From Verrucomicrobiota bacterium (GTDB lineage: Bacteria > Verrucomicrobiota > Verrucomicrobiia > Verrucomicrobiales > V1-33), in the NCBI GenBank assembly GCA_003402705.1, contig QQNF01000010.1, positions 1-64,000 of the forward strand: a DNA stretch of 64,000 nucleotides, given 5' to 3'. Below are positions 34,293-51,032 of the stretch, piece by piece (the stretch's first letter is position 1; every line of letters begins with the position of its first letter). The position numbers were made by a program, and so were the translations under genes. The notes under the pieces were generated by a model, which made no database searches, was not told the DNA's origin, and saw only the letters and a list, made by a program, of their open reading frames with translations.

Positions 34293-36467
34293 TCACCGCT
34301 TCCGCCCGCCCGCCGCCTTCTTCCCGCCCTTCCCGCCCTTCCGGTAACTCACCGGCTGCACCGCCGGCAACCCCGCTCCGCTCTGCAACTCCCGGATCTG
34401 ATCCCTCAACAAGGCCGCCCGCTCAAACTCCAGCGCCGCACTCGCTTCCATCATCTCCACCTGCAGTTGCGCCACCACCTCCGCCACATCCTCATCCCCG
34501 CCACGCTCGGCCACCTTCCCGTCCGTCCCCTCCGTCGCCGCCATCTTCAGGGTCTCCTGCATTCTCCGCGGCACCGGCATCGGCACCAACCCCCGCTCCT
34601 CGTTGTACGCCATCTGCATCCGCCGGTGATAGGTCGTGATCCCAATCAGCGCCTGAATGCTCTTCGTCATCACATCCGCAAACAATATCACCTCCCCATT
34701 CACATGCCGCGCCGCCCGACCCGCCGTCTGAATCAGGCTCGTCTCGCTCCGCAGATACCCTTCCTTATCCGCATCCAGAATGCACACCAGCGACACCTCC
34801 GGCAGATCCAATCCCTCCCGCAGCAGGTTGATCCCCACCAGAATATCAAACTCCCCAGCCCGCAGCCCACGCAGAATCTCCACCCGCTCGATCGCATTCA
34901 CATCACTGTGCACATACCGCACCCGCAGATTCACTCCCCTCAGATAATCCGTCAGATCCTCCGCCGTCCGCTTTGTTAGCGTCGTCACCAGCACCCGCTC
35001 CCCTCGCTCCACCCGCAACCGGCACTGCTCGATCGTCTCGTCAATCTGCCCCTTCAGCGGCTTCATCGTGATCACAGGATCCAGTAATCCCGTCGGCCGG
35101 ATGATCTGCTCCGCTATCAGCACTTTCCCCGGATTCACCACATCAAATGTCTCCACCGGATCCGCCGTCCCCGAAATCCGCGGCGTCAGCGCAGGCACCG
35201 TCTCCCCGTCCCCGATCCTCGCCCTCAGATGCGGAATATACCCCTCATTCCCCACCACGCTGTTCTCCACCTCAAACCGCGCCGGCGTCGCACTCACATA
35301 CAGAATCTGCCCAGTCCGCGCCATGAACTCCGAAAACCTCAGCGGCCGATTGTCCAGCGCACTCGGCAGCCGGAACCCGAAGTCCACCAGCGTCGACTTC
35401 CGGCTGTGGTCCCCCTCATACATCCCGCCAATCTGCGGAATGCTCGCATGACTCTCATCCACAATCAGCATGAAATCGTCAGGAAAGAAATCCAGCAGCG
35501 TGTACGGCGTCGCCCCGGGCTCACGGCCCGTCAGATGCCGGCTGTAATTCTCAATCCCCTGACAAAACCCCATCTCCCTCATCATCTCCAGATCATAATC
35601 CGTCCGCTGCCGGATCCGCTGCGCCTCCAGAAACTTCCCCTGCTCCTCAAACCACGCCACCCGCGCATCCAGTTCCTCACGAATACTCGTCTGCGCCGAC
35701 CTCAGCTTCTCCGCCGCCGTCACAAACTGCTTCGCCGGATAAAACGTGAACGCCTCCACCACCTCCCTCGTGTTCCCCGTCAGCGGATCAAACACACTCA
35801 ACCGGTCAATCTCATCCCCGAAAAACTCCACCCGCACACCGTCATTCTCCAGACTCGCCGGCCACACCTCCACCACATCCCCACGCGCCCGAAACCTCCC
35901 GCGCTGAAACGCAATGTCATTCCGCTCATACAGCAGATCCACTAACCGCGTCAGAAAATGCTCGCGCCTCATCTCCATCCCACGCCTCACCGGAAACATC
36001 GCGTCCGCATAATCATCCGGTGACCCCAACCCGTAAATGCAGCTCACACTCGCCACCACAATCACATCCTCCCTCGTCAGCAGCGCACTCATCGTGCTCA
36101 GCCTCAACCGCTCGATCTCGTCGTTGATGCTCGAATCCTTCTCAATGTACGTGTCACTCCGCGGAATGTAAGCTTCCGGCTGATAGTAATCAAAGTAACT
36201 CACAAAATACTCGACCGCATTCTCCGGAAAAAACTGCTTCAGCTCCGAATACAACTGCGCCGCCAGGGTCTTGTTGTGACTCATCAGCAGCGTCGGCTTC
36301 CCCGTCTCCGCCACCACGTTCGCCATCGTGAACGTCTTCCCGGACCCAGTCACCCCCAGCAGGGTCTGATGCTTGTTCCCGGCCCGCACCGACTTCACAA
36401 GCTTCGCAATCGCCTGCGCCTGGTCCCCGGACGGCGGATACGGTGAATGAAGTTGGAACTCTGCCAC
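34293..36467 (-). CDS. uvrB: Excinuclease ABC subunit B
   Basis: 724 aa, slightly longer than the usual 660-680. Walker A in TLLGVTGSGKTFTMANVVAE, the beta-hairpin region YFVSYFDYYQPEAYIPRSDT and YIEKDSSINDEIERLRLSTM, DEAD-like LIVDESHASIPQIGGM, helicase motif VTTLTKRTAEDLTDYLRGVN, and QTAGRAARHVNGEVILFADV. A C-terminal UVR motif (EASAALEFERAALLRDQIRE) binds UvrC. UvrB verifies DNA damage and loads UvrC in nucleotide excision repair. The extra length is mainly a basic, glycine/lysine-rich tail (RKGGKGGKKAAGGRKR). It is convergent with the kinase and 129 bp from tRNA-Leu. Confidence 0.97.
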   Translation of the reverse strand: MAEFQLHSPYPPSGDQAQAIAKLVKSVRAGNKHQTLLGVTGSGKTFTMANVVAETGKPTLLMSHNKTLAAQLYSELKQFFPENAVEYFVSYFDYYQPEAYIPRSDTYIEKDSSINDEIERLRLSTMSALLTREDVIVVASVSCIYGLGSPDDYADAMFPVRRGMEMRREHFLTRLVDLLYERNDIAFQRGRFRARGDVVEVWPASLENDGVRVEFFGDEIDRLSVFDPLTGNTREVVEAFTFYPAKQFVTAAEKLRSAQTSIREELDARVAWFEEQGKFLEAQRIRQRTDYDLEMMREMGFCQGIENYSRHLTGREPGATPYTLLDFFPDDFMLIVDESHASIPQIGGMYEGDHSRKSTLVDFGFRLPSALDNRPLRFSEFMARTGQILYVSATPARFEVENSVVGNEGYIPHLRARIGDGETVPALTPRISGTADPVETFDVVNPGKVLIAEQIIRPTGLLDPVITMKPLKGQIDETIEQCRLRVERGERVLVTTLTKRTAEDLTDYLRGVNLRVRYVHSDVNAIERVEILRGLRAGEFDILVGINLLREGLDLPEVSLVCILDADKEGYLRSETSLIQTAGRAARHVNGEVILFADVMTKSIQALIGITTYHRRMQMAYNEERGLVPMPVPRRMQETLKMAATEGTDGKVAERGGDEDVAEVVAQLQVEMMEASAALEFERAALLRDQIRELQSGAGLPAVQPVSYRKGGKGGKKAAGGRKR

Positions 36468-36595
36468 AATCTCTGATCAGTTCCCTCCCCTCTCCCCCCG
36501 TTCCTCCCCCCACTCAACAAGGAAACCTCCACCCAAAAGCTTCTCCTTGCACCCACCCCACTCCAGTGCTCTCTACCCCCGCAACTGCATCCCCG

Positions 36596-36681
36596 GCCGG
36601 AATGGTGGAATGGTAGACGCTACGGATTCAAAATCCGTTGCCCGCAAGGGCGTGTGGGTTCGAGTCCCACTTCCGGTACCA
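36596..36681 (+). tRNA. tRNA-Leu (anticodon CAA)
   Basis: 86 nt including an encoded CCA. Acceptor GCCGGAA pairs with TTCCGGT (one G-U), anticodon stem ACGGA/TCCGT holds the loop TTCAAAA with anticodon CAA at its centre, a class II variable arm GCCCGCAAGGGCG is present, and the T-arm is GTGGGTTCGAGTCCCAC. Its 3' 62 bp (with two bases past CCA) are repeated at 49030-49091, so it is the integration site of the island to its right. Confidence 0.95.
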
Positions 36682-36683
36682 CT
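36622..36683 (+). repeat. attL: 62-bp direct repeat, left end of the island
   Basis: From the anticodon stem of tRNA-Leu to two bases past its CCA. Identical over all 62 positions to 49030-49091; sequence diverges immediately on both sides. Because the repeat restores the tRNA 3' end, the tRNA stays functional after integration. Confidence 0.93.
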
Positions 36684-36952
36684 CTAAACCCCTGAAAATC
36701 AGGGGATTCCGACGGGAAAGCGAGCGAAAGACGGGTAGTCGGAAAACCCCGGGAAATGCCCATAAATGGCCATGAATGCAGGAAAAACCCGGAACAAACC
36801 CGGAACGGATTCGTGAGGTATTCCAGCCCCACCCTCCGCCGCCCGCGGATTGCTCCCCGGAACACCTCCGCCGTCGACCCTCACCTCCACAATCGCCCTT
36901 ATGCGGCCATTCCGAACTTGTCGATTACCGCTTAATCCGGCAGAATCAGGGG

Positions 36953-37111
36953 ATGAATCCGGACCACGAAGAATTCCCCGTTACCCTCGACGACGCCACA
37001 AAGGCAAAACTGGACGAAGTCGTTACAGCCACCGGGCTCCCCGCCGGGGAGGTTCTCCGCCTCGCGATTGAAACCGGGTTGCGTGTGATGGAGTCGGCGC
37101 GGCAGAATTGA
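36953..37111 (+). CDS. Small ribbon-helix-helix-like protein
   Basis: 52 aa from the ATG at 36953, preceded by AGGGG. Reads MNPDHEEFPVTLDDATKAKL, DEVVTATGLPAGEVLRLAIE and TGLRVMESARQN. A short strand followed by two helices is the pattern of ribbon-helix-helix DNA-binding proteins (compare the TATGLPAGEVLRLAI helix-turn). It probably acts as a small repressor or antitoxin-like regulator for the island. Decayed copies of the same ORF occur near 39187-39255 and 42396-42450, each before another cargo gene. The stop is 38 bp before the next gene. Confidence 0.6.
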   Translation: MNPDHEEFPVTLDDATKAKLDEVVTATGLPAGEVLRLAIETGLRVMESARQN

Positions 37112-37149
37112 ACGCTGACAGGGGGCGGTTCGGGGTGTATTCAGCCACC
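37112..37149 (+). promoter_or_regulatory. Repeated cargo-gene leader, copy 1
   Basis: GGCGGTTCGGGGTGTATTCA, ending with GCCACC before ATG. Related sequence occurs at 39263-39285 and 40779-40816 (GGTGGTTCGGGCGTGTATTC), the latter again directly before a start codon. It may carry the promoter or ribosome-binding region shared by cargo genes; which of these is not shown. Confidence 0.5.
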
Positions 37150-39018
37150 ATGAAACCGAAACAGAAAACGACCCTCGCCGCCGCCATGCGCCCCTCCGCC
37201 GCCTTTTTCATCGCCAGCCTCGTCTCACTCCTTCGGACTCACGCTGCCCCTGGTGACCTCGATCCCACCTTCGGATCGGGCGGAAAGGCACTCTTCTCCA
37301 TGAATGGTATTGGTGGCATGGCATCGCTGGTCCTTCAATCCGACGGCAAGATTATAGCTGCCGGAGGAGCTCGTCTTGTCAGATTCTTGCCGGATGGCAC
37401 CCTGGATCCAGATTTCAATTCCGGCGGCATCATTAGTCTGTCGTATCAGCACGTAGGGCCAGGATGGGCAGATTTGGCCGTCTTGGCCGACGGGAAGATC
37501 TTAGCTTGTGCGAACCGCACACTTAGGCGTTGGCATCCCGACGGAAGCCCAGACACATCATTCAATGAAACCGGCGTGATCGCTCTACCGGGCCAAGCAT
37601 TTGATCTGACACTAGACGATACACGGAGAATTCTCGTCGGCATGCACTCCGGTCTGGCACGCTACACTTCCAACGGAAGCCTCGACCTAAGCTTCGGACA
37701 GTCTGGGATCGCACTGTATCGACCGCCAAACTATCGATCCGTCACAAGCGTTGCCTCGTTTCCGGGCGGGGGCTCTCTCGTAATGGAAGATGAAAACGGC
37801 GGGTGGGGCTGGGGCGTGATCACCAAACTCAATTCCGCTGGCGTTGAGGACTCCGGATTTCCACTTATTCAGGTTTTAGTCGGCATGGGTCGCATGGAAA
37901 TCGAGGGACAACGTGCGATCTATTACTCCAATGGGATCGGGATCTCACTAATCGACTTTCAGGGCAATTTGGAATCTGTCTTGTCCGGACCGGACATACT
38001 CAGCGGCGTAAATGGTTTCACCAAGCAGCGCGATGGAAAGTTCATCATGGTCGGGTCAAGTCTAAATCCGATCACTGGTCGTTCTGATGTCTCTATCCGG
38101 AGAGTTCTCCCCGACGGCGCACGGGACACTTCATTCGCCAACGACGGAGTCAGGAACGTTGTTACTGGCAGCTTCCAATCCGGTGCCAATCGTGCCGTAG
38201 TCCAGCGCGACGGCAAGATCGTTGTCGCCGCCATCAGCGATACCAACGTCTTGGTTCTTCGACTCCTCGGCGACGACCCAGACATCACCGTTGAGTATCC
38301 GCTGGGAACCAGTCTGGCGGCGGTGCCCGTGCCAACCATCGATTTCGGCCCCGTCGTGGCAGGCCAGTCACAGACACGGAGCGTGTACCTGTCGAACCGG
38401 GGCCCTGCTGACCTTGAAGGCTTGAAGGTCGTGCGGGGAGCAGCCGGAACTCCTTCCGAATTCACCATTGCCTCCGAGATTCCCGCAACACTCGCGACTG
38501 GAGAATCCGTGCCACTCACTCTGGTCCTGACCCCGTCATCTCCCGGCAAAAAGACGGCTACCTTTGAAATTCAGAGCAACGATCCAGACGAGAGCCCATT
38601 CACGCTTTCCCTCACTGGCCGTCAGGCAACCGCCACCGATCTCTGGAGACAGACGCATTTCGGCAGCATGGACGAAACAGGAATCGCCGCGGACCAGAGC
38701 GACCCGGATGCCGACGGAATCGCCAACCTCGTCGAATTTGCCCTCGGAAGTCATCCGAAGGAGTCCACGCCGAATACCGGAACACTTGTCAGAAATGGCA
38801 GTACCCTTGAATTCACTTACTGGCGCTCTAAAGCCGCCCTCGGAGAAATCGCATTCGTCCGTGAATTCTCCCAGTCACTCGCCGAGGGATGGAGTCAGGT
38901 CGGCGGCATGGTGGAAACCATTGTCGAAGAAACCACCGAACTTCAAAGGGTGCGCGTGACCACCCCCGCAGGCACCGCCGGACGGCGCTTCGTCCGCCTC
39001 CGCGTCACCCGTCGATAA
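37150..39018 (+). CDS. Secreted delta-60-repeat beta-propeller protein with ASH-like domain
   Basis: 622 aa from the ATG at 37150, which opens a signal peptide (MKPKQKTTLAAAMRPSAAFF, then IASLVSLLRTHAAPGD). Residues 25-380 contain delta-60 repeats: LDPTFGSGGKALFSMNG, PDGTLDPDFNSGGI, PDGSPDTSFNETGV, SNGSLDLSFGQSGI. Residues about 390-490 form an ASPM-SPD-2-Hydin/choice-of-anchor-like Ig domain (VPTIDFGPVVAGQSQTRSVY, then FEIQSNDPDESPFTLSLTG). The end has DPDADGIANLVEFALGSHPK and a final beta module. Typical of Verrucomicrobiota exported proteins; function unknown. It is the first large cargo gene after the small RHH-like ORF. Confidence 0.75.
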   Translation: MKPKQKTTLAAAMRPSAAFFIASLVSLLRTHAAPGDLDPTFGSGGKALFSMNGIGGMASLVLQSDGKIIAAGGARLVRFLPDGTLDPDFNSGGIISLSYQHVGPGWADLAVLADGKILACANRTLRRWHPDGSPDTSFNETGVIALPGQAFDLTLDDTRRILVGMHSGLARYTSNGSLDLSFGQSGIALYRPPNYRSVTSVASFPGGGSLVMEDENGGWGWGVITKLNSAGVEDSGFPLIQVLVGMGRMEIEGQRAIYYSNGIGISLIDFQGNLESVLSGPDILSGVNGFTKQRDGKFIMVGSSLNPITGRSDVSIRRVLPDGARDTSFANDGVRNVVTGSFQSGANRAVVQRDGKIVVAAISDTNVLVLRLLGDDPDITVEYPLGTSLAAVPVPTIDFGPVVAGQSQTRSVYLSNRGPADLEGLKVVRGAAGTPSEFTIASEIPATLATGESVPLTLVLTPSSPGKKTATFEIQSNDPDESPFTLSLTGRQATATDLWRQTHFGSMDETGIAADQSDPDADGIANLVEFALGSHPKESTPNTGTLVRNGSTLEFTYWRSKAALGEIAFVREFSQSLAEGWSQVGGMVETIVEETTELQRVRVTTPAGTAGRRFVRLRVTRR

Positions 39019-39045
39019 CCGATGACGTAGGCGCAGGCTCTTCGG

Positions 39046-39300
39046 TTCCCCGCCCCGCCCCACCACCACCCCTCCCACCCCTAGGCCCCGGAATCAGGGA
39101 CAGCCTCCTTTATATGGACCCCTTCAAAAAATTGGGAGAATTCCGCGATGATTCCGGACCCCTTGAATAATTTGTCGCCTGCTTCGACGACGCCCCGAAG
39201 GAGCGGATTGAGGAAATGAGCGGGAGGTGGAGCGAGTCGGCGCGACAGAATGGAATCCCTCGACAACGGCGGTTCGGGTGTGTATCTCCCCGCAAAACGA
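39046..39300 (+). repeat. Degenerate repeat block: decayed small ORF plus leader, copy 2
   Basis: Starts with a roughly 50-bp sequence also found at 42264-42314 (CCGCCCCGCCCCACCACCAC and CCCCTAGGCCCCGGAAT). At 39187-39255 it reads DDAPKERIEEMSG and WSESARQN, a worn copy of the small ORF at 36953 (DDATKAKLDE, MESARQN). The leader GGCGGTTCGGGTGTGTAT follows at 39263. The order, small ORF then leader then cargo gene, matches copy 1. Confidence 0.6.
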
Positions 39301-39390
39301 AACCCGCACCGCTTCAATCGCCCGCATCGGGAACCCCGATTAGCTTCAATCCGCAGGCCCGCCTCTCACCAAGAATAAATCCAGACGAGA

Positions 39391-40218
39391 ATGAACCAGT
39401 ATTACCACGCGGACGAGTCCGGAAATTCCGTCGGCCCGGTGTCCTCGGATGAGTTGATGCGATTGCACAAGGACGGCGTGATCAGGTCAACGACGCTTAT
39501 CACGGAAGCGAACCAAGAAACTTGGATTCCGCTCTACAAATTCGGCTTCACAAGCGGACCTTCGGCTGACACCAGCGCCCTCAAGGAGTGCCCGCTGTGC
39601 GGTGAATCGATTGGGTCCGGCATCTTCGGATCGAATTCCCTGATATCGCCAATCGTTGCCGCACTCATTAAAGAATACTGCCCGGAACAGTCGGTCCGGC
39701 GGTGCGAAAAGTGCGCGAGCGGGATTCTTGGGAATGCCAAGGAGCGTTTCACTGCCGAGCGAAATGGATTGGTTCGCGTTATTCAGACCGAACTTCAAGC
39801 GATTCCAATTCTCTCACTCCAAGCTCCTCTTCATTGGGACTACAGGGTTTGCGGGCTTGTGACAGGCCAGTCTGTGATCGGCACTGGTCCGCTATCGGAA
39901 TTCTCATCCGCTATCACCGATCTCTTCGGCTCTCAATCCAACGCATATCGCAGAAAGATAAAGGAAGGTGAGACCCATTGCGCGACCATGCTGAGGAACG
40001 AAGCGTTTGAGATTGGGGGAAACGCTGTGCTTGCGGCAGACGTTGACTATGCCGAGTTGGGCGGCGCAAAGGGGATGCTCATGGTCTGCATGACCGGAAC
40101 GGCAGTCCTGCTTGGCAACGCTGAGATTCTTGGTGAGAACACGGTGCAATCACTCACCCGACTTGGGGAATGCAAGGCCCGCCTCGACTACATATCGAGC
40201 TTGGCGGTAGAATCATAG
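39391..40218 (+). CDS. GYF_2 domain protein with a YbjQ-like C-terminal domain
   Basis: 275 aa. Residues 1-55 match GYF_2/DUF4339 (MNQYYHADESGNSVGPVSSD, ELMRLHKDGVI, then TWIPLYKFGF), a small domain that often starts bacterial membrane-associated proteins. Next is a zinc-binding-like segment with CPLCGES and CEKCASG. Residues about 155-255 resemble YbjQ/UPF0145 (CGLVTGQSVIGTGPLSEFSS, GNAVLAADVDYAELGG, GMLMVCMTGTAVLLG). YbjQ-like proteins form pentamers of unclear function. No membrane helix is seen. It is one of two GYF_2-type proteins in the island. Confidence 0.7.
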   Translation: MNQYYHADESGNSVGPVSSDELMRLHKDGVIRSTTLITEANQETWIPLYKFGFTSGPSADTSALKECPLCGESIGSGIFGSNSLISPIVAALIKEYCPEQSVRRCEKCASGILGNAKERFTAERNGLVRVIQTELQAIPILSLQAPLHWDYRVCGLVTGQSVIGTGPLSEFSSAITDLFGSQSNAYRRKIKEGETHCATMLRNEAFEIGGNAVLAADVDYAELGGAKGMLMVCMTGTAVLLGNAEILGENTVQSLTRLGECKARLDYISSLAVES

Positions 40219-40267
40219 TGCCACCGGCCCTCCTCCATGGGAAGTGAGTAGGCATCCGCCGTGAAAT

Positions 40268-40687
40268 CTACGCGATACGGCTAAGGAGTCGCCAAGTCTG
40301 GGTAGCGGGGTCGTGCAAGTAGTGATCCGTTGGGACGAGTTCCCCCGTATTCAGAAACGCCAGAACATCAGCAAGGGGCCAGGTCCCGATAATTTCGCCA
40401 TCCCGCCGGATTGTCAGTTGATCCGGTACATCGGCAAGGCTGCTGGCGGGATTTACGGGGGCGGCGGGGCGGGCGGCGCGATGGGTGGCGTGGAGTGCCG
40501 CGGTGGCGGCGCGTTCCGCAGAAGCGCGATTACCCAACATCACCGCAATGATGACTCCCAGCGGACCGAATAGCAGCCCAACGACAAATCCGTTCCCCCG
40601 TTGCTCAGGCCCTGCCAAGTTGCAGCCAATGAGCCCGCAAAGTATCCAGACGAGAGCAACACCATGCATGATTTCCAAAAGCTGCAC
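40268..40687 (-). CDS. Small membrane protein with a C-terminal GYF_2-like domain
   Basis: 139 aa. Two hydrophobic segments at the N-terminus (MHGVALVWILCGLIGCNLAG and GNGFVVGLLFGPLGVIIAVM), a proline/alanine linker, then DQLTIRRDGEIIGTWPLADV, LAFLNTGELVPTDHYLHDPA and TQTWRLL. The end matches the GYF_2 pattern with W and a late W-x-x-L. The start could be the ATG seven codons in. It is convergent with the GYF_2/YbjQ-like gene, with 49 bp between stops, and may act with it at the membrane; that is inference. Confidence 0.6.
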   Translation of the reverse strand: MQLLEIMHGVALVWILCGLIGCNLAGPEQRGNGFVVGLLFGPLGVIIAVMLGNRASAERAATAALHATHRAARPAAPVNPASSLADVPDQLTIRRDGEIIGTWPLADVLAFLNTGELVPTDHYLHDPATQTWRLLSRIA

Positions 40688-40778
40688 GATACTGAGCGAA
40701 CGGCGTATGCGTCAAGGCGTGACCGCAGCGGAGAGCGCGGGCAATTGCGGATCTGGTCAGCGGAGGGAAAAGTGGATC

Positions 40779-40816
40779 AGTGACAACGGTGGTTCGGGCG
40801 TGTATTCAGCGCCATC
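40779..40816 (+). promoter_or_regulatory. Repeated cargo-gene leader, copy 3
   Basis: GGTGGTTCGGGCGTGTATTC, then AGCGCCATC directly before the ATG at 40817. It matches the leader at 37112 and has the same spacing to the start codon to within a few bases. Confidence 0.5.
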
Positions 40817-41374
40817 ATGAATCCGAAAACCATCGCCGCCGCCCTCGCCCTCCTCTCAATCGGCTCCGCCCCCGCAAGTGAAGCCGTGACGCTCACTTGG
40901 AAGAAGGACGCGCCAGAGAACGCGCAAACGGCAGTCCTCACGCTGGCAGCCGGGGAGAGCTTGAAAGCAGTTTGGGGCGGAGAGCGAGTAAATGGAGGCG
41001 ATCAGGTTCAGAATCATATCCGGGTGAGGCTCTCAGTTACGAAAGGCTCCGAAACGTGGCTCGCGAACCTAGTGGACGCCCATAACTTCGGATCGGGAAT
41101 CGCTGTCCTGAACTTTCAAATAACGGGACCGGCAGTCATCCGGCTTGTTCCCAACGATCCGACGGGAACCACCGTCACATCCGTTGCCACTTTCGACGTC
41201 ACCCGCGTCGGCACCGCAAGCCCTCCCGCGGAAGTCCCACAGGAGGCTGGCAGCGACTTCGACGTCATCCTCGAACAGAGCAGCGATCTTGTGAACTGGA
41301 CGCCCGCGAACCCCGGCACCTACTCCGGCACCGAAACGAAGCGATTCTTCCGCACCCGGATCGTGAAGAAGTGA
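40817..41374 (+). CDS. Small secreted protein with terminal S-x-D-L-x-x-W module
   Basis: 185 aa with a signal peptide (MNPKTIAAALALLSIGSAPA). A beta-rich domain follows (SEAVTLTWKKDAPENAQTAV, LTLAAGESLKAVWGGERVNG, FQITGPAVIRLVPNDPTGTT). The C-terminus reads FDVILEQSSDLVNWTPANPG and KRFFRTRIVKK, the same short module found at the ends of the large secreted proteins outside the island. Relics of homologues lie at 43430-43573 (C-terminal half) and 44528-44735 (N-terminal half). Function unknown. Confidence 0.7.
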   Translation: MNPKTIAAALALLSIGSAPASEAVTLTWKKDAPENAQTAVLTLAAGESLKAVWGGERVNGGDQVQNHIRVRLSVTKGSETWLANLVDAHNFGSGIAVLNFQITGPAVIRLVPNDPTGTTVTSVATFDVTRVGTASPPAEVPQEAGSDFDVILEQSSDLVNWTPANPGTYSGTETKRFFRTRIVKK

Positions 41375-41583
41375 GCGGATGCCGATGGGGCCATCCCCGG
41401 CCGCCCCGGAACAATTGCACCCCCGGCAGCAGTTGCCCCCAAGCACGTGACGCCTGGCCCTGTCGTCGCGCTCCGGCCCGCCTTCGTCCCGCTTCGTCAC
41501 CCCAGAAGGAGATGCACACACCCCAATCTGAGCAGCGCTCACGACATCTCCTAGCAGGGATCGACTCGCCGCCTCTCTTAATC

Positions 41584-42039
41584 TCAATTCTTGGCGGCTT
41601 TGAACATGGCATCAACATAATCCTGCGGGGAGAACCCATCCGGAAGCAAGCCACATTTCTCTAATCGGGTCGCGTGCCACAGTGCCCTCTTCCGACCAAA
41701 CGATTCCTCTGGAGTCCCTGAAAACTGTTTGGCGATATCAACTATGTATCCTTCGGACTTGCTTCTGAAGTCCTCCGCCAGCGCCTCGATGAGCGGCCCG
41801 GATGCAGATGAGCCTTTCAGAGATTCAATTACGCTCTTCAGTTCGGATTGCTCGCGCCTCGCCAACGCTTCCGATTCCATGAACTGAACTTGAAATTCAT
41901 CGCTCCTCTCTCGCTCTTGGGTGAATCGGCCAAGGGCCTCTGACTCGAATCGGCGTGACTCTCGCAGCTGCCAGACATTGAGTGCGATGCTGCCACAAAC
42001 CAGCATCCAAAGAATTCCGTTTGATTGCCCAGATTTCAT
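41584..42039 (-). CDS. Membrane-anchored coiled-coil protein of unknown function
   Basis: 151 aa. A hydrophobic anchor near the N-terminus (GILWMLVCGSIALNVWQLRE) is followed by a long charged helix (SRRFESEALGRFTQERERSD to REQSELKSVIESLKG) and a C-terminal globular piece ending GFSPQDYVDAMFKAAKN. It is likely held in the inner membrane with a coiled-coil facing the periplasm or cytoplasm. No family is recognised. Confidence 0.6.
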   Translation of the reverse strand: MKSGQSNGILWMLVCGSIALNVWQLRESRRFESEALGRFTQERERSDEFQVQFMESEALARREQSELKSVIESLKGSSASGPLIEALAEDFRSKSEGYIVDIAKQFSGTPEESFGRKRALWHATRLEKCGLLPDGFSPQDYVDAMFKAAKN

Positions 42040-42263
42040 ATTTTCTTAGTTCCTCGCCACGAAGCAATTGGCATTAGCACCCTGACCCACCCCGCTGCCA
42101 GGCCGAAATCCCGCACCGTTCACCTCAGAGTGCCGCCAATGCCGAACGGCGATAGAAACTGCCTGCTTCATCATCAGCAGGATCTTGCATTCTCTAGGCA
42201 CTTTGTCCAGCAGGCCCTGAGGATCGAGTCGCGGCAATCCCTTGCCGAGGCAGCTTCCAGTCA

Positions 42264-42460
42264 TCCCCCTCCCGCCCCGCCCCACCACCACCCCTCCCTC
42301 CCCTAGGCCCCGGAATGCGGTATCTCAGTAATTATACGGCCCCTTAAAAAATTCTCAGAAACTGGAGATGAATTAGGATTCTCCCGGAGAATTCCAATCT
42401 CTCCCGACGGAGTTACGAAGGCGAAACTGGACGAACCGCCATCATCTGGAGCGGTTGGCA
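42264..42460 (+). repeat. Degenerate repeat block: decayed small ORF, copy 3
   Basis: Begins with the same roughly 50-bp sequence as 39046 (CCCCGCCCCACCACCACCCC, CCCCTAGGCCCCGGAAT), followed by CGGCCCCTTAAAAAATT, related to GGACCCCTTCAAAAAATT at 39117. Near 42396-42430 it reads ISPDGVTKAKLDE, a remnant of the small ORF at 36953 (LDDATKAKLDE). It precedes the secreted coiled-coil gene at 42528. Confidence 0.55.
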
Positions 42461-42527
42461 TAAGCACGGACCCGCATTACGGGTTTGCGTAATTTGAGAA
42501 AGCATAACGGGACGTAGGGTCTGATTA

Positions 42528-43226
42528 ATGAAGAAGGTTCTTTTTTCAACTCTCTGTTGCGTGGTCCCTTTGAGCAGCCTCGCCCAATCCCAATCTAAAG
42601 ACAATCGGGTAGGGGTAGAACAGATGGAATCTCTTCGACGGATGCAAGAAGAACGTATGCGGTCTGAGGAGGAGTTTCGTCTACGGGTGGAAGCAGACCG
42701 TAGGCAGGTGGAAGCAGAAAATCAGCGCCGCGACACTGAAGCGCGCCTAGATGCCATTGAGCGCCAGCAGCAAAAGATTCGCCAAATGCAGGAAGATTAC
42801 GAAAAGAAGCAGGCCCGGCGGGGGTTGGACGGCGAAGAGCTGGATGAGATAATTAGGCGTAACGCCGTCCCACCTATCACTGTTCCGCGGACAGTTCAGC
42901 CAAGACCCGCCCGCGTTCCGTCAGCGCCCCGCACGGCAGCAGAACGCGCATCGGAACTAGAGAAGGCCATGCGGGAAAGCCTGGCAGCTATGGCGGAGGC
43001 CCAGAAAACTCAGTATCTGACGGCTGAGGACGTTGGGGTCCTCAAAATGATGCTGAAAGACATAGACAGTATCGCCATGATTCTTTCCCCGAAGAATCCA
43101 TTTCAGGAAACCGCCGAGAGTACAGCAATGGCGCTGTCGAATCGGGGGCTCCTTCGGTATCGCCCGGAAGTGTCCAGAATTTATGAATTAGAGAAGGCGC
43201 GCTGGACTGCCGCTGGAAAACGGTAG
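42528..43226 (+). CDS. Secreted coiled-coil protein of unknown function
   Basis: 232 aa with a signal peptide (MKKVLFSTLCCVVPLSSLAQ). Residues 30-100 form a highly charged helix rich in R, E and Q (MQEERMRSEEEFRLRVEADR, QVEAENQRRDTEARLDAIER) predicted to be coiled coil. A proline-rich linker (PPITVPRTVQPRPARVPSAP) and a second helical part (ERASELEKAMRESLAAMAEA) follow. It could be a periplasmic scaffold or adaptor. No homologue is recognised. Confidence 0.65.
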   Translation: MKKVLFSTLCCVVPLSSLAQSQSKDNRVGVEQMESLRRMQEERMRSEEEFRLRVEADRRQVEAENQRRDTEARLDAIERQQQKIRQMQEDYEKKQARRGLDGEELDEIIRRNAVPPITVPRTVQPRPARVPSAPRTAAERASELEKAMRESLAAMAEAQKTQYLTAEDVGVLKMMLKDIDSIAMILSPKNPFQETAESTAMALSNRGLLRYRPEVSRIYELEKARWTAAGKR

Positions 43227-43429
43227 GGCCAAGAACCGACGATCAGCGCAGCGTTTCCCGCCCCCATTTTGGTCTCCTTTAGCCTCCTGTGGCTTCGTTT
43301 CTCCTTTCGAGCCTTAGGGGAAAAAAGTGGCAAACAAGCGCAATACCCCCGGAATTTCGTATTTTCTGTTCGCAATCTCTCCGCAGTCGGAAAAGCCGTC
43401 ACGGACAAGCGCCGCCCCCGTAACTATCC

Positions 43430-43573
43430 GTCCCGCATTCCCTTCTTTCACCCAATCGGATGCGGCTTTTATCAAGGAGAGTTCCGCCGACCTGATCACT
43501 TCGACGGCGGCGAATCCCGGAGATTATTCAGGAATCACGGCGAAGAGGTTCTCTCGGAATTTCTCCCATCGCG
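43430..43573 (+). pseudogene. C-terminal relic of a homologue of the 185-aa secreted protein
   Basis: Codons here read FTQSDAAFIKESSADLITST and AANPGDYSGITAKRFSRNFS. This aligns with EAGSDFDVILEQSSDLVNWT and PANPGTYSGTETKRFFRTRI at the end of the protein encoded at 40817-41374. No upstream domain is attached. Confidence 0.55.
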
Positions 43574-43591
43574 CTGGCATACCCCCATCAT

Positions 43592-44386
43592 TTACCGGGC
43601 GAACACAACAATGGAACAAGCCAGAAGGCCCAGCAGACATATCCAATGAACAGCTATAGCAAACGAAACACTGCTGTCATCACGATCACCGGTGGCTCGC
43701 CCCTGAAGCGCCATTGATATCGCCCTTCTGGAACACCACGTTCCAATAACTAGACCTATTATCCAGCCCTTGAGCGAGTCTGCGCCTTGGATTAGCGCGA
43801 TTGCACCCATTCCGTAAGAGAGTCCTGGGAGGTAATGAGCGATCTGCATAGCCGTTCCCGGCGCGATACGCTGCTCAAAATCGATGCTATAAATCGGATG
43901 ATCATCAGGCTGCCCCCCTTGGATCAGATTGTCTTTGTGATTAGTTTTGATGGAATTGCTACTTATCGACGGAAAGATTGTCTTATCGGTGATCAATTGA
44001 GCAAGAGAATTTTTTGAGGAGTCACCGTCTCCTCTAGCAAACATAAGCAATGCCATATCGGATGCCCTGCTGATTTTTATTGCACTCGGGTCTTTATTAG
44101 CTAAAAGCCTGTAGGCAACCAGCTTGTCGTTTAGTGTTATGTTAATACCATAAATTGAATTGCAGATTCCATTTGAATTGAATAATTCTTTCATGACAAA
44201 TTTTTGAACTTCCACCTCTGACATGTTCTCGCTAAGAGAACAAAACGCTGCGCTCTCAAGAAATACAAAATAAATAACCCTCTCCCTCAATCCAATTCCC
44301 GTCAGTTTAGTCGGGATCAATGCGTTTATTATTTGCAGGTTGGAAAAAGCGAATAGTACTTTGCTAAGCTTGTTTATATCGGCCAT
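43592..44386 (-). CDS. AT-rich gene for an unknown protein with C-terminal membrane helices
   Basis: 264 aa (MADINKLSKVLFAFSNLQII start). The N-terminal 175 residues are soluble, with SLSENMSEVEVQKFVMKELF and GINITLNDKLVAYRLLANKD. Hydrophobic segments follow near 185-215 (YLPGLSYGMGAIALIQGADS, LKGWIIGLVIGTWCSRR) and at the end (FAIAVHWICLLGLLACSIVV). Base composition is clearly more AT-rich than any other gene in the window, with AAA, AAT and ATT codons frequent, which points to recent transfer from another source. It has relics of one secreted-protein family on both sides. No function is recognised; as island cargo an accessory or defence role is possible but not supported by motifs. Confidence 0.65.
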   Translation of the reverse strand: MADINKLSKVLFAFSNLQIINALIPTKLTGIGLRERVIYFVFLESAAFCSLSENMSEVEVQKFVMKELFNSNGICNSIYGINITLNDKLVAYRLLANKDPSAIKISRASDMALLMFARGDGDSSKNSLAQLITDKTIFPSISSNSIKTNHKDNLIQGGQPDDHPIYSIDFEQRIAPGTAMQIAHYLPGLSYGMGAIALIQGADSLKGWIIGLVIGTWCSRRAISMALQGRATGDRDDSSVSFAIAVHWICLLGLLACSIVVFAR

Positions 44387-44527
44387 TGTTCAAGAATTTA
44401 AAGGTTATTGATCGAATTCCACGAGTGGAAAATGAATCCTCCGTGGGTTTCCTCGGCGCTTTCGTGTCTACCGGGCATCTGAAATTTGTACAACGTTTTT
44501 TTCGCTTCGTTTGATCTTGCCCGCACC

Positions 44528-44735
44528 ATGAGAATCAACGCATCTGCCTTTGCCGCTGCCCTTGTGCTCTTGGCCATTCCCGCTGCCGTCGCTTGACGCT
44601 GACGTGGAAGCGGACAGCCAGCAATGCCGACAATCCAAGACCGTGAGGATTGAACTGGGAGTCGGGGAGAGCATCAAAGCACTCTGGGGAGTGGGGGGAG
44701 TATCGGGAGAGCCCGAAGCGGGCAGAGCCCCCCGG
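44528..44735 (+). pseudogene. N-terminal relic of a homologue of the 185-aa secreted protein
   Basis: Starts with an intact signal peptide (MRINASAFAAALVLLAIPAA, VA) and then hits TGA. Shifting one base gives LTLTWKRTASNADNPRP, and a further shift gives RIELGVGESIKALWG. These match AVTLTWKKDAPENA and TLAAGESLKAVWGG in the protein at 40817. At least two frameshifts disable it. Confidence 0.65.
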
Positions 44736-44802
44736 TGAGGAGGTAACTGGCAAGGATTGCCGCGGCAGTAATCAGAATTGAGGTGATGACGGGTTTCAGC
44801 AT
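44674..44802 (-). CDS. Possible 42-aa membrane peptide
   Basis: The ATG at 44802 starts MLKPVITSILITAAAILASY, LLTGGLCPL and RALPILPPLPRVL before TGA. One membrane helix with a GGLCPL end is typical of small membrane proteins, but the last about 14 codons overlap the antisense relic at 44528, so the 3' end may be chimeric. 44803-45061 contains nothing recognised. Confidence 0.35.
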   Translation of the reverse strand: MLKPVITSILITAAAILASYLLTGGLCPLRALPILPPLPRVL

Positions 44803-45061
44803 GGGATTGTTTCGTTGCCGCATGTTCGCGGTTCGCGCATTTCCTTGGGATGGGGCGGGATGTGGTTGGTCACAGCCGATTTAAGGCCGGGGTCTGTCGA
44901 GGTGTCCAACTGACGGGGTCGGTGTCCGTGCTGCACGCTGCGGGTGATTCTGTGCGATTGGCAGGGTGCTGGCGGAGAGATGAGGAGGGAGAGCAGGGGT
45001 GGGAAGGTGTTGTCACCTCAATCCTTCCCCTGATCACCCCTCTCCGGGTCGGGAACGATCT

Positions 45062-45270
45062 TGGAAACGAATGCGTTTTTTGAGCCGTCCGTTTCCGATA
45101 TGCTATGGGTATCGTTTCCGGCTCGTTTCCATTCCCGTTTCCACTTCTGAGTCGGATTTGAACCGGGAAACGCCTGAATGTTCAGGCTCGTTTCCATTTT
45201 GTTTCCACCGGGGTGTGTGGAAACAATCCCCGTTTCCCGTTTCCCGCCTACAGGGAGGAAACAGGAAACG
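45062..45270. repeat. Iteron array, candidate replication origin
   Basis: About 13 copies of GTTTCC or its complement GGAAAC in about 205 bp, mostly extended as CGTTTCC(A/C/G). Forward copies are near 45089, 45113, 45124, 45136, 45189, 45200, 45231 and 45238; reverse copies near 45062, 45165, 45219, 45257 and 45264. Spacing is irregular, from 7 to about 50 bp. The array starts right after the stop of the RepA-like ATPase gene. Short repeats beside a primase/helicase module are the pattern of iteron-controlled plasmid origins. No separate AT-rich melting box is evident. Confidence 0.7.
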
Positions 45271-45273
45271 TTT

Positions 45274-46299
45274 TCACGATCCGGGGATGGCGTACTTCTG
45301 TCCCGACTTCTCCAACCTCCCCGTCTTCATCGCTCGCCGTGCCACTTTGGAAACCTGCCCCTTGGAACGTCCCATCATCTCAGCGATCTCTCCGCACTGA
45401 TTGAAGCCATCCCGGACCAGTTCAATCAGCAGAAGCATGTCGTCACCACGCTCGCACTCCACTCCCTCTGCCGTGACCTTCCAGTCCAGCGGGGGAGCAT
45501 CGTGCGCCTTGCAGTTCCGGCACTTCGTGAACTCAGAGGTGAATACTGCGCCTTCGTGAGTGGCGTCGTGACTGGATGTCAGCCGGATCACCCACTGCAT
45601 TTCGTCCTCTCTCTTGCTTGCTCCTCGAGCCCCTCCGCCGCCTCGGCCTTCATGGTGAATCAGGATCACCGTCACCCTTGCTCGCCGGAACCGCCGAAGC
45701 CATGAGTTCATCTTCTCCCATTCGTCGTTGTCGTTCTCCTTTACGCCACGGCACAGGCAACTGAGGTTGTCCAGTATCACCACCTGAACTCCCGCCTCCA
45801 CGACTTGCGCCAAAAGCGACTCCTGTTGCTCCGCGTCCGCGAGGTTGAAGCAGTACCCCTCCGGGAGTGTTTCGTGGTGAAGGAATCCTGGAACCTGCCC
45901 ACCAACCAGTGCGCTCCTGATGGCGTTGGTGCGCTCTTTCGAGTCGGCAAGATTCATCTCGCCGTCAACATACAGAACCTTTTGCGGCCCCAGTTCTCCG
46001 GCATCCCATTCTCCCAGCGGAGCCCCGTCGGATATGGCCTGAGCGATCAGCATGGACATCCATGTCTTGCCGACGCCACGCGCCGCATAAATCATCCCTA
46101 GATCTCCTTGCTTCATCCACTGCCCCATGAGCCGAGGCCGGGGAGTAATCTGAATGGCGGTGAGGTTGCACCCGGCCGCCATCGCTGAGGCGAATGCAGA
46201 AGGCCAGTCTTTCCTCGCCGCGGTGTTTGTTGTGCTGGTGATCGGACTGGCGTCGGGGACTTCGTCGTCATCTGGAATTTCTATCGTCGTGGGTCTCAT
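45274..46299 (-). CDS. RepA-like (RecA-fold, AAA_25) replicative ATPase
   Basis: 341 aa. Walker A is MIYAARGVGKTWMSMLIAQA (about residue 73), Walker B lies in VQVVILDNLSCLCRGVKEND, and VTVILIHHEGRGGGGARGAS is the following motif with the conserved HH-x-G-RG. This matches the hexameric RepA/DnaB-related helicases of RSF1010-type plasmids and similar ATPases in integrative elements. The C-terminal 60 residues hold a helix-turn-helix-like segment (FNQCGEIAEMMGRSKGQVSK) which could bind the iterons just downstream. It overlaps the primase gene by 32 bp, so the two are translationally coupled. Confidence 0.8.
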   Translation of the reverse strand: MRPTTIEIPDDDEVPDASPITSTTNTAARKDWPSAFASAMAAGCNLTAIQITPRPRLMGQWMKQGDLGMIYAARGVGKTWMSMLIAQAISDGAPLGEWDAGELGPQKVLYVDGEMNLADSKERTNAIRSALVGGQVPGFLHHETLPEGYCFNLADAEQQESLLAQVVEAGVQVVILDNLSCLCRGVKENDNDEWEKMNSWLRRFRRARVTVILIHHEGRGGGGARGASKREDEMQWVIRLTSSHDATHEGAVFTSEFTKCRNCKAHDAPPLDWKVTAEGVECERGDDMLLLIELVRDGFNQCGEIAEMMGRSKGQVSKVARRAMKTGRLEKSGQKYAIPGS

Positions 46300-47299
46300 G
46301 GGGTGTGCGTTGGGTTGGGGTTGGGGTTGGGTTTGTGCTTGTTCTCATTTTTGTGTTTCGGTAAAATTCGGTAAGGTAGTCCGGGCATCCGGGGCTGCGC
46401 TTTAGTTCATCGCCAAGGTCGCCTTCGACGAATTGGCGTATGCGTGCGGAACCACCTGCGGTTTTTATAGCTCTACGCCATCCCTTGGCGGCTTTCAGTC
46501 CGGGTTCGCCAGCATCGGCAAGGATCATTACATGACGGGTTGATAGGTAGGTGGCGTTCTTGTTGGAAAGGACGCTGGCTTTGCTGTAGGCGGCGATAAC
46601 TCCGACACCTTCCCAGCATTCACCTGATTCGTCCTCTGCACGCAGCACGGCCTCCACGGCTTCAAGAAGGCCGACTAGGCCCTCGGTGATAATGACGACC
46701 TTCGTGTCCTTGTTGATGCCGCATCTGATACCGAAGCCCTTAACGGGGAAATAGGTGTCAACCTTGGACTCGCCACCGTCCCTCAGCTGCCACTTCCCGC
46801 CGTCCAGTCGCTTCGCCTGGAAGATGCCGGGGCCGTGCAGGAAATAGGCTGGAAGCTCGCGGTTTGTGCCGACGGACAGAACACCGTTGGCAACCGCCAG
46901 AGAAACGGCGGCGGGGCTGATGCCGCGAACCCGCGCAATCTGTGCAATCTCCGTATCGTTGGGGATGAACGTCTCCGGTCGGAGCCGTGGCGACTTTGGC
47001 GGGGGCGGTGCAGGCGTAGGGCGGTTGATCCTTTCCCTGCTTTCCTCCCCCAGTAGGAAACCCCGTTCGCCGGGGAAGCGATTCACGCCAGACAGTTTCA
47101 CCCTCACGCTATTGTCACTCCAAAGTGGGGCGGATCTTTGGTTGTATTCGGCAATCAAGGGGAAGGCTTCATCCGGTGGGATGTCGAAACCTGCGACAGT
47201 GGAAAAGCAGGCTTTGTGAAGCGCATTCTCTCCTCCCGCTCCTTGAATTGACGGGGGGAGTTTAGCCAAATAGCGCCTGGCGCGTTCAATAACGTCCAT
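46268..47299 (-). CDS. Primase-like protein with Toprim domain
   Basis: 343 aa. The N-terminus (YLAKLPPSIQGAGGENALHK, ACFSTVAGFDIPPDEAFPLI) resembles the primase C-terminal/PriCT-like helical domain. The second half is a Toprim fold: VVIITEGLVGLLEAVEAVLR supplies the conserved E and HVMILADAGEPGLKAAKGWR the DxGxxG-type acidic motif. Toprim primases make RNA primers for DNA replication. No N-terminal zinc finger is visible, so loading may depend on the partner ATPase. The C-terminus ends in a short PTPTPTQ repeat encoded by GGGTTG-type DNA. First gene of the replication pair, transcribed leftward. Confidence 0.7.
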   Translation of the reverse strand: MDVIERARRYLAKLPPSIQGAGGENALHKACFSTVAGFDIPPDEAFPLIAEYNQRSAPLWSDNSVRVKLSGVNRFPGERGFLLGEESRERINRPTPAPPPPKSPRLRPETFIPNDTEIAQIARVRGISPAAVSLAVANGVLSVGTNRELPAYFLHGPGIFQAKRLDGGKWQLRDGGESKVDTYFPVKGFGIRCGINKDTKVVIITEGLVGLLEAVEAVLRAEDESGECWEGVGVIAAYSKASVLSNKNATYLSTRHVMILADAGEPGLKAAKGWRRAIKTAGGSARIRQFVEGDLGDELKRSPGCPDYLTEFYRNTKMRTSTNPTPTPTQRTPHETHDDRNSR

Positions 47300-47392
47300 A
47301 GGATTCGCTTGAATCCGGCCTTTCGGTAGGCTACCCTCAATCAGTCGCCCAGACTGCCCCCCCCGCGCTGCTACCGAAGCGGCCGGGGGTTT

Positions 47393-47578
47393 TTACTTGC
47401 TGGCGAATTCAAGAAGGTCCTGATACCTAATCCGCACGCATCGCCGCCCCATGCGCTTCGGTCGAATTGTTCCGTCGGCAATCCATTTGTCTATAGTTCT
47501 CAAATTTACCGAGAGGAGCTTTGCCGCCTCCGGTCTTGTTATCCAAATGGGGTTGAGCGAATGGTCATGGTTAATCAT
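47393..47578 (-). CDS. AlpA/MerR-like excisionase
   Basis: 61 aa with one helix-turn-helix: PIWITRPEAAKLLSVNLRTI, DKWIADGTIRPKRMGRRCVR, IRYQDLLEF. This is the HTH_17/excisionase (Xis, AlpA) pattern, where the wing GRRCVRI contacts DNA. Such proteins steer the integrase toward excision or regulate it. It lies between primase and integrase on the same strand. The 176 bp upstream towards the integrase are AT-rich. Confidence 0.85.
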   Translation of the reverse strand: MINHDHSLNPIWITRPEAAKLLSVNLRTIDKWIADGTIRPKRMGRRCVRIRYQDLLEFASK

Positions 47579-47754
47579 CTCTAAGCATCAGCGAGAGCCG
47601 AATGTATGCAACCCGTTCCTCTCATTTCGGCCCAAATGAGCTATTTCGCGTCCATGCCAGTTATTGGAATCCGCTCATTTCCAGAGATTTACAAACCAAA
47701 AAAAACTTTCTGTTAGTGTTACGCGAATGCGTATCTCGTGTGGGGTTTATATGA

Positions 47755-48930
47755 TTAAATAGATTTTCGCGGCAGTAATTCCGAGGGTTGCAGCTTCTCC
47801 GGCATGATGTTGAACCACGCACGCGCATTCTCCCGGGAGGTAGTATTTTGATAGTGAGAGTGGACGACGCCGGGAGAATTCCCCATCTCCTCCGCTACTT
47901 GCGCCGCGTTCTTCGTGACGGCTAAGCGATACGTTCCGAACGAATGTCGCAAAAGGTTTTCGCTCCAATCAATTCCAGCGGCGGCGGAGGCGGCTTCCAA
48001 GTGACGGCGATATGCACTCAGGGAGATTTCCAGACTTGCGCCGGGGAGTCCACGGCACGTCCTCAGCCATGCCACGGCATTTTTCGGGATGGGTGGATTG
48101 CGGCGGCGGTTGGTCTTTGTGACTGCGCTGGTGAGTTCAACGAATGGCTCCTTGCCTTCCAGTTTGATCTCTCCCCACGTCAGACGCTCGCTTTCGGCCC
48201 TGCGGACCCCGCAGAACGCTTGCAGCACCAGCAACGGCAGAATGGCAGGGTCGGCGACGGCGAGAAGCGCACTTGCCTGTTGCGGCGTCAGGATGGCAGG
48301 GTCGGAGGGCGCGGCCTTCGGTGCCTTCAATTTCGACGCCGGGTTTGCCGGAATCTGCCCGCGATCAAGGGCGAGGGAGAAAACGCTACCAAGGGCGAGG
48401 GAGTAGTTTTCCCACGTCTTCGGGGCGACACCCAAGCCGTGAAGCCAGTGCGAAAGGTCATCCACGGTGACGGCAGACAGCGGGCGCATTCCGAAAGCCG
48501 TGGCGAAACGCGCCAGACGGCTTTTCAGGTCAGCTTGATGCCGCGGGGAGAGCTTGCGGCGCTCCGCATCTTCCAGCCGTTGCCGGATTGCTTCGGTGAC
48601 GGTGATGGTGGATTGCGCGGCGCTGAATGCCTCGATGGCGGATTCGACGACGGCGGACAGGTCAGGCGCTCCCGGCGTCGCCCTTTGCCACTCCCGAAAC
48701 CGGATCAATGCAGCCCTTTCGGATGAGGAGACGCTGGCATGGGCCGCACCATGAGCCGTCAATTCGCGGCGCTTCTCCGCCGCCAGCGCTTCGGCTTCTC
48801 GCTTCGACTTCGGCCATGCCGTTTTCGTGACGGCCTTCCCGGTCGCGTCCCGCTCGCTCCACCGCACCTCCCAGACAGGGAATTGATAGCTTTTCTTGCC
48901 GTTCGGGTGGTGGTGGATGCTGATTTTCAT
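47755..48930 (-). CDS. Tyrosine recombinase (island integrase)
   Basis: 391 aa from the ATG at 48930 (MKISIHHHPNGKKSYQFPVW), preceded by GGGGAG; the longer upstream frame runs into attR. Core-binding domain around residues 125-225 (FATAFGMRPLSAVTVDDLSH, ENYSLALGSVFSLALDRGQI). Catalytic domain: Arg I in CGVRRAESERLTWGEI, NLLRHSFGTYRLAVTKNAAQ with Arg II, MGNSPGVVHSHYQNTTSREN with the nucleophile Y. Two histidines of the classical set are N here (NLLR rather than HxLR, MGNS rather than LGHS). The same changes are familiar in a planctomycete/verrucomicrobial integrase subgroup. The gene starts 100 bp from attR and directs integration at tRNA-Leu. Confidence 0.9.
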   Translation of the reverse strand: MKISIHHHPNGKKSYQFPVWEVRWSERDATGKAVTKTAWPKSKREAEALAAEKRRELTAHGAAHASVSSSERAALIRFREWQRATPGAPDLSAVVESAIEAFSAAQSTITVTEAIRQRLEDAERRKLSPRHQADLKSRLARFATAFGMRPLSAVTVDDLSHWLHGLGVAPKTWENYSLALGSVFSLALDRGQIPANPASKLKAPKAAPSDPAILTPQQASALLAVADPAILPLLVLQAFCGVRRAESERLTWGEIKLEGKEPFVELTSAVTKTNRRRNPPIPKNAVAWLRTCRGLPGASLEISLSAYRRHLEAASAAAGIDWSENLLRHSFGTYRLAVTKNAAQVAEEMGNSPGVVHSHYQNTTSRENARAWFNIMPEKLQPSELLPRKSI

Positions 48931-49029
48931 CTCCCCGCTTCTATATGCAGCCATAGACAGCAGGCAAACGCAAAAGTCGGAACACGCACGGAATGAAGCC
49001 GTGAGGGCGCTGATTTTCAACGTGTCACC

Positions 49030-49091
49030 ACGGATTCAAAATCCGTTGCCCGCAAGGGCGTGTGGGTTCGAGTCCCACTTCCGGTACCACT
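49030..49091 (+). repeat. attR: 62-bp direct repeat, right end of the island
   Basis: Perfect repeat of 36622-36683. It carries the anticodon stem-loop, variable arm, T-arm and acceptor 3' strand of tRNA-Leu, but lacks the 5' acceptor and D-arm, so it is not a tRNA gene. Sequence beyond 49091 leads to der. Confidence 0.93.
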
Positions 49092-49269
49092 TCCTTCTCC
49101 CTCGCGTCCCGGTTGCGCTCAGCCATTGCCGTCGCCATCAATGCTCAAGGCCCGCAAGGTTGCGGTACCCGTCGTCCTCACTCTCGTGCGGGTTCGTGTC
49201 CCGCCTCCCGCTCTCTTTGCTCCGCGGGCCCACCACGCTGCAACAGCCCTTTCCAATACACCCCTTTCC

Positions 49270-50952: not shown

Positions 50953-50975
50953 CACCCTCCCCTCCTCACAAAAAA

Positions 50976-51009
50976 CCGCGGCCGCCGGGATCTCTCCCCG
51001 CGGCCGCGG
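50976..51009 (-). terminator. Intrinsic terminator between der and the discoidin/LamG gene
   Basis: Ten-bp perfect stem: CCGCGGCCGC at 50976 and GCGGCCGCGG ending 51009, loop of 14. On the minus strand it is followed by TTTTTTG, so it is a strong rho-independent terminator for the leftward gene. Its position between convergent stops lets it also block transcription from der. Confidence 0.75.
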
Positions 51010-51032
51010 CCATTTCATCCTATCACTTCAGC

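Follow-up and report, generated by a model that had tools for sequence, protein, structure and literature searches.

The window analysed here, a 64,000-nucleotide stretch of a Verrucomicrobiota contig (QQNF01000010.1), raises the question of what kind of element is inserted in its tRNA-Leu(CAA) gene, and how such an element would be maintained and spread. The contig is part of a 4.08-Mb, 75%-complete genome assembly of 128 contigs. A 12.4-kb insert is bounded by perfect 62-bp direct repeats at 36622-36683 (attL) and 49030-49091 (attR), and the coordinates given for them in an initial sequence-only reading were exact. ARAGORN identified one complete tRNA-Leu(CAA), the host gene used as the attachment site, on the plus strand at 36596-36681. 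The right copy comprises only the last 60 nt of that gene plus 2 nt.

The uninterrupted site, which had been suggested as a check, was present in G001 and G003, both genomes of the same genus, in which uvrB-tRNA-Leu-der lacks the insert. Window positions 35392-36683 and 49030-51894 align to these genomes at 95-97% identity, and the left and right alignments overlap by exactly the att sequence, attL corresponding to attB in the congeners. The GC skew is approximately -0.2 to -0.45 in the flanks and approximately 0 inside the island, with a break at both borders. The motif TGAAAATCAG was found three times, beside both att sites, with 0.05 copies expected in the whole window. These copies are candidate arm-type integrase sites, one at the left end (36693-36702, plus strand) and two at the right end (48920-48929 and 49010-49019, minus strand). 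With repeats of a tRNA 3' end, an adjacent tyrosine integrase and an empty site, the locus has the features of a site-specific tRNA island or integrative element. The exact att repeats and the 95-97% identical empty sites in two congeners indicate that the insertion is recent. Judged from these comparisons, the 12.4-kb island is real and recent, and its integration into the tRNA-Leu gene is established. We consider it likely that the island arrived recently as an integrative element, site-specific and equipped with a replicon of its own, according to the four-step explanation given below.

Four core genes are open, lie on the minus strand and are ordered from the right end as integrase, excisionase, Toprim protein and ATPase, in the single direction described previously. 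The tyrosine integrase (47755-49020; PF00589, 1.4e-6; phrog_1, 5.5e-31) has an uncertain start codon, with candidates at TTG 49020, ATG near 48954 and ATG near 48930. It does lie near the right end, but the reported distance of 100 bp has to be widened to 10-100 bp owing to this uncertainty. The excisionase-like protein (47393-47578) is of the HTH_17 type (PF12728, 7.7e-10; phrog_66, 2e-8). The Toprim primase-like protein (46268-47299) was recognised from its relatives and its motif, the PF13362 match (0.0026) being below the curated cut-off. The Glu motif is kept, and the second Asp of the DxD motif is replaced by Gly. Decay of the window copy was considered as the cause of this change and rejected, since DxG is common to four relatives. 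Among the scanned island proteins there was no match to a capsid, tail, terminase, relaxase or conjugation family, which agrees with the sequence-only reading on the absence of phage and conjugation genes. The PHROG scan detected no TerS in the window cargo. No defence genes were detected in it either; the only such match was a weak one of mads_8 to the helicase core.

The fourth core gene (45274-46299) encodes an ATPase resembling hexameric helicases of the RepA type (AAA_25, PF13481, 5.8e-28). Its sole sequence relative in the PDB is RSF1010 RepA (1g8y/1nlf/1olo, E 1.6e-5). The AlphaFold model (pLDDT 83) contains a RecA-type core followed by a C-terminal helix-helix-helix-strand-strand unit, which in the model is read as a winged helix. 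When the model was compared using Foldseek, RepA gave a target TM of 0.70-0.73, the best target-normalised value among the 50 best matches listed. The Walker motifs RGVGKTW and DNLS are conserved, and the protein has the RecA-fold core of RSF1010 RepA-type helicases. No match to the ATPase was found in 72,556 plasmids or in the phage collection. The window protein lies on a long branch, and its nearest relative (L120) is 43% identical.

A feature not noticed in the sequence-only reading is an array of thirteen GGAAAC/GTTTCC iterons in 207 bp (45063-45269), from 4 bp past the ATPase stop codon; the remaining 40 copies in the window are scattered across the 64 kb. The array opens with an inverted core of four copies (GTTTCC-GTTTCC-spacer-GGAAAC-GGAAAC), after which the spacing is often approximately 11 or 22 bp. 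An inverted core with a similar centre was seen in many relatives. For relatives with a profile E<1e-90, the 310 bp that follow the ATPase gene were scored for 6-mer enrichment at p<1e-6. Arrays were found 3' of 30 of the 41 related ATPases among the matches listed, versus 1% of 1,774 control windows taken from the same loci, and the window array was the richest in the set. There was no array at L090 or L095, and at L091 an array was found only approximately 320 bp away. From its position and recurrence, the 13-repeat array is likely to be a replication origin.

Relatives of the ATPase were found by alignment query; a contig scan with a single protein as query gave none. Among 142 genomes from the same order or more closely related, 21 encode the ATPase. 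When each species was represented by one genome, the scan gave 37 ATPase loci, mostly in Verrucomicrobiota, with other carriers in Comamonadaceae, Sphaerotilaceae, Myxococcota, Nitrospinota and others. The integrase, where found, is usually 2-3 kb upstream of the ATPase on the same strand. Bounded sister islands with the same order of integrase, (excisionase), primase and ATPase were recovered, their integrase, primase and ATPase genes lying on one strand; they include L099, L126 and L131, in which short repeats are common to both island ends. Exact tRNA repeats delimit islands at tRNA-Met (4.9 kb), tRNA-Lys (8.1 and 8.2 kb), tRNA-Ser (6.0 kb), tRNA-Glu (9.7 kb), tRNA-Gly (5.9 kb) and tRNA-Thr (14.5 kb), and a 7.6-kb island lies at tRNA-His in Rubritalea marina. 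The cultured carriers are Rubritalea marina DSM 17716 and Roseibacillus persicicus KCTC 12988. For L101, L096, L092 and L102, no usable second copy of the tRNA repeat was found within the flanking DNA examined.

The integrase sits at the end opposite the intact tRNA, as described correctly in the sequence-only reading, but this is not an oddity. The layout is usual in the closest bounded sister islands: the window shares it with L097, L099, L126, L131 and L143, and it can be regarded as normal here; in L121 and L128 the integrase is beside the tRNA. Unrelated phylogenies of integrase, primase and ATPase had been named as an observation that would count against a common module, and they were not found. 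The ATPase distances correlate with those of the integrase (Mantel r 0.47) and the primase (Mantel r 0.45; p 2e-4 for both), so the module appears to be partly co-inherited, with exchanges. Within Verrucomicrobiota only, the ATPase-integrase correlation was lower (Mantel r 0.25, p 0.03). In the open literature searched, only two papers deal with both phage satellites and Verrucomicrobiota, and neither, judged by title and abstract, describes such a family. These loci represent a widespread, apparently undescribed family of small mobile elements.

In the explanation that we propose, the element first integrated into the 3' part of the tRNA-Leu gene and rebuilt the tRNA at one end, a step that can be read from the junctions. 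The adjacent tyrosine integrase, with the HTH_17 excisionase and the arm sites at both ends, would then excise a circle. Autonomous replication would follow: the winged helix at the C terminus of the RepA-type protein would bind the GGAAAC iterons just past the end of its own gene and load the helicase on the inverted double-iteron core, with priming by the Toprim protein. Lastly, and with less confidence, the element may spread as the passenger of some other element, of which a phage is the most likely, in a PICI/PICMI-like manner; this is suggested because several sister islands have a TerS-like gene just after the origin. The proposal in the sequence-only reading of an excisable, self-replicating, satellite-like element is thus well supported by the empty sites, the bounded sisters and the conserved iterons, with excision, replication and transfer as its predicted parts.

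The TerS-like genes lie just 3' of the iterons in five sister islands. The matches were strong in two islands with defined ends (L121, 2.2e-17; L143, 5.1e-10) and weaker in L138, L142 and L096 (about 1e-5 to 1e-6). A pooled PHROG scan of the sister-island ORFs gave several TerS families, one at 8.4e-30, which are not tied to a given ORF. Packaging by a phage is a plausible route for the family as a whole; TerS, capsid and interference genes are all absent from the window copy. The lack of TerS and capsid genes in the window copy would also suit an integrative and mobilizable element, in which a conjugative helper, and not a phage, would transfer the circle from an oriT that escaped recognition. 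An ArdC-N/M78 anti-restriction-like protein in L099 and a similar ORF in L126 point in the same direction, anti-restriction genes of this type being often carried on conjugative DNA. We nevertheless regard conjugative mobilization as unlikely, given that family scans found no relaxase or conjugation genes of ICEs or IMEs in the window island, that TerS-like proteins are encoded in five sister islands, and that the ATPase had no counterpart among the plasmids searched.

The cargo occupies the left and central parts of the island. On the plus strand it comprises a small ribbon-helix-helix-like ORF (36953-37111; PF01402, 0.0028, below the cut-off), a secreted DUF5122 repeat protein with relatives in congeners (37108-39018, probable start ATG 37151; PF17164, 1.1e-22), a GYF_2 and YbjQ protein (39391-40218; PF14237 and PF01906), a small secreted protein (40817-41374) and a coiled-coil-like ORF with a signal-like N terminus (42528-43226). 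The minus strand carries a small membrane protein with no significant family (40268-40687), an ORF with no family assigned (41584-42039) and an A+T-rich ORF (43592-44386). Two plus-strand fragments relate to the 40817-41374 gene: the C-terminal part of a second copy (43438-43557; tblastn, 3.6e-6) and a fragment resembling the N-terminal part (44655-44709). The GYF_2 protein had been thought unusual as cargo, a view that does not hold: approximately ten such domains are encoded in the host genome, which makes the protein an ordinary one there.

For the DUF5122 gene, an 87%-identical DNA stretch was found in the congener G001, with further domain matches at G000 C22 and C23; the 40817-41374 gene has a domain-sized match elsewhere, at G000 C72. 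Across 13 genomes of the family, the remaining cargo had no DNA match or only very short ones. Displacement of all the cargo from host loci was rejected as an explanation because matches elsewhere in these 13 genomes are limited to the DUF5122 gene and part of one secreted gene. The whole cargo at other conserved loci in close relatives, which would have spoken against an island, was likewise not found; the DUF5122 gene is the only one with close DNA relatives elsewhere in the genus. The cargo looks like secreted proteins of host-lineage type in turnover, plus the A+T-rich gene at 43592-44386. In the proposed explanation, the secreted and membrane-protein cargo would be largely passenger DNA, partly of host-lineage type.

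The broken duplicate cargo genes, the DxG Toprim motif and the long ATPase branch could also be consistent with a domesticated or decaying island, once mobile and now immobile in its window copy. This is rather improbable when set against the four open and ordered core genes, the recent event recorded by exact att repeats and near-identical empty sites, the window iteron array, which is the richest in the set, and the recurrence of DxG in relatives. Two further repeats were observed in the cargo, a C-rich 46-bp repeat at 39049-39094 and 42271-42316 (98% identical) and a partial copy of the end of the ribbon-helix-helix gene (37091-37140 and 39234-39285), which suggest past duplications.

The iteron unit varies by branch, being GGAAAC in most, GGCAAC in a Prosthecobacter-related group and TGAAAC, TGCAAC, CGCAAC, GTAAAC or TGCAAG elsewhere. 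One recognition-helix residue is Lys in all ATPases with GG[A/C]AAC repeats (25 of 25); where the repeat is a different one, it is Arg or Gln (12 of 13), the exception being L152. Repeat class changes at least five times on the ATPase tree, and the sister pairs L122/L134, L128/L125 and L150/L147 differ in residue and repeat, both in the expected direction; the correlation rests on few independent contrasts. This covariation suggests that the iterons are bound by the winged helix of the ATPase itself, and because of it helicase and initiator appear to be fused. The GGAAAC array could instead be an operator or other regulatory site of the operon, and the region is, at 50% AT, not especially A+T-rich. 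We find this improbable, as the array is located 3' of the operon, outside its promoter region, has a phasing of approximately 11/22 bp with an inverted core, covaries with the helicase's own winged helix, and occupies the place of the PICI origin (PMC6092414).

The Prosthecobacter-related ATPases (L103, L104, L119, L139, L144 and L146) have an insertion, with GGCAAC-type repeats in some. Their upstream genes are shared and no integrase was found nearby, and the group may represent another element type.

Three viral contigs (L161, L162 and L158) have TGCAAG or TGCAAC iterons after a related ATPase, and phages may thus share the replication module. These contigs would also fit an island left over from a temperate phage or phage-plasmid that has lost its structural genes. 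Such an origin is quite improbable, since the island contains no structural gene or fragment of one, the compact 5-15 kb integrase-primase-ATPase layout recurs at many tRNAs, and the closest ATPases are located in islands. An assembly artefact at the 62-bp repeat, conceivable in a metagenome bin with 128 contigs and 75% completeness, can be set aside almost entirely: a single contig spans both junctions, the flanks match the congeners, and the same architecture occurs in independent genomes, including that of the cultured Rubritalea marina.

The island is best read as an integrative replicon convergent with the PICI and PICMI phage satellites. In PICIs, which have int, xis, primase and rep, an iteron origin lies directly behind the 3' end of rep and is in some cases followed by terS (PMC6092414). 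The island resembles PICIs and SaPIs in its specific att sites and similar small size, and PICIs in the position and repeats of its candidate origin, directly 3' of rep. It differs in its helicase, a RecA-fold ATPase of the RSF1010 RepA type that also has a winged helix, and in that int is co-directional with xis, primase and rep, whereas the int of PICIs is apart from a divergent xis-pri-rep operon, with a regulator between them. Their origin has two iteron sets flanking an A+T-rich region, whereas in the window an inverted double-iteron core is followed by spaced iterons. No PICI regulator pair was recognised among the scanned island proteins. The packaging or capsid gene of some PICIs is absent from the window, whereas L121 and L143 have TerS-like genes. 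The verrucomicrobial islands, known here from sequence alone, have no known helper.

In PICMI, the minimalist satellites of Vibrionaceae, defence genes accompany int, a regulator of the HTH_17 type and a primase (PMC10803314). The likeness extends to the minimal set of integrase, HTH_17/AlpA-like protein and primase and to defence cargo in some members. The island proteins gave no match to the PICMI fis gene or DUF3987/DUF5906 primase, and the window island is in another phylum, with a putative helper phage. Several defining features of each group fail, and the island is therefore assigned to neither, although its construction is suited to working as they do. Tycheposons, compared here through a citing paper (PMC10872708), share tRNA targeting, a tyrosine recombinase and cargo.

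IncQ RSF1010 shares the RepA helicase fold, a primase and iterons. RSF1010 has a separate iteron-binding protein, RepC, and the primase RepB'. The window island, in contrast, fuses a winged helix to the helicase, has a Toprim-type primase and sits in a tRNA gene, and no separate RepC or MobA/RepB family was found in it. More broadly, and with slightly less than an even chance in our estimation, the islands could form a Verrucomicrobiota phage-satellite family with related replication modules in other phyla. Their replicon would be convergent with that of PICIs, with a RepA-type helicase fused to an iteron-binding domain and a 3' origin that co-evolves with one recognition-helix residue, giving lineage-specific origins.

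Knowledge of helper-dependent elements is concentrated in few species (PMC11389934), and the island adds a concrete family that can be searched for, with defined ends, a candidate origin and carriers in culture. Two questions become testable: how a replicative helicase could double as the initiator, and how origin specificity changes, one recognition-helix residue being set against the first bases of the iteron. The family also offers an explanation for those tRNA islands of Verrucomicrobiota that resemble an orphan integrase beside defence genes. Defence genes were seen at three loci for which island ends were not found, with BrxA, BrxB and BrxC (BREX) next to the module in L094, HmaA in L101 and type III R-M genes in L136.

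Two minor observations concern a sister island and the flank. In the TerS-bearing L121, three adjacent secreted cargo proteins (L121:12121-14109) have VPDSGST C-terminal sorting-like signals. Between attR and der in the window, a tRNA-3'-end-like stretch (49156-49217) is 61% identical to att; the DNA that holds it is kept in both congeners, and it is possibly an old tRNA or attachment remnant.
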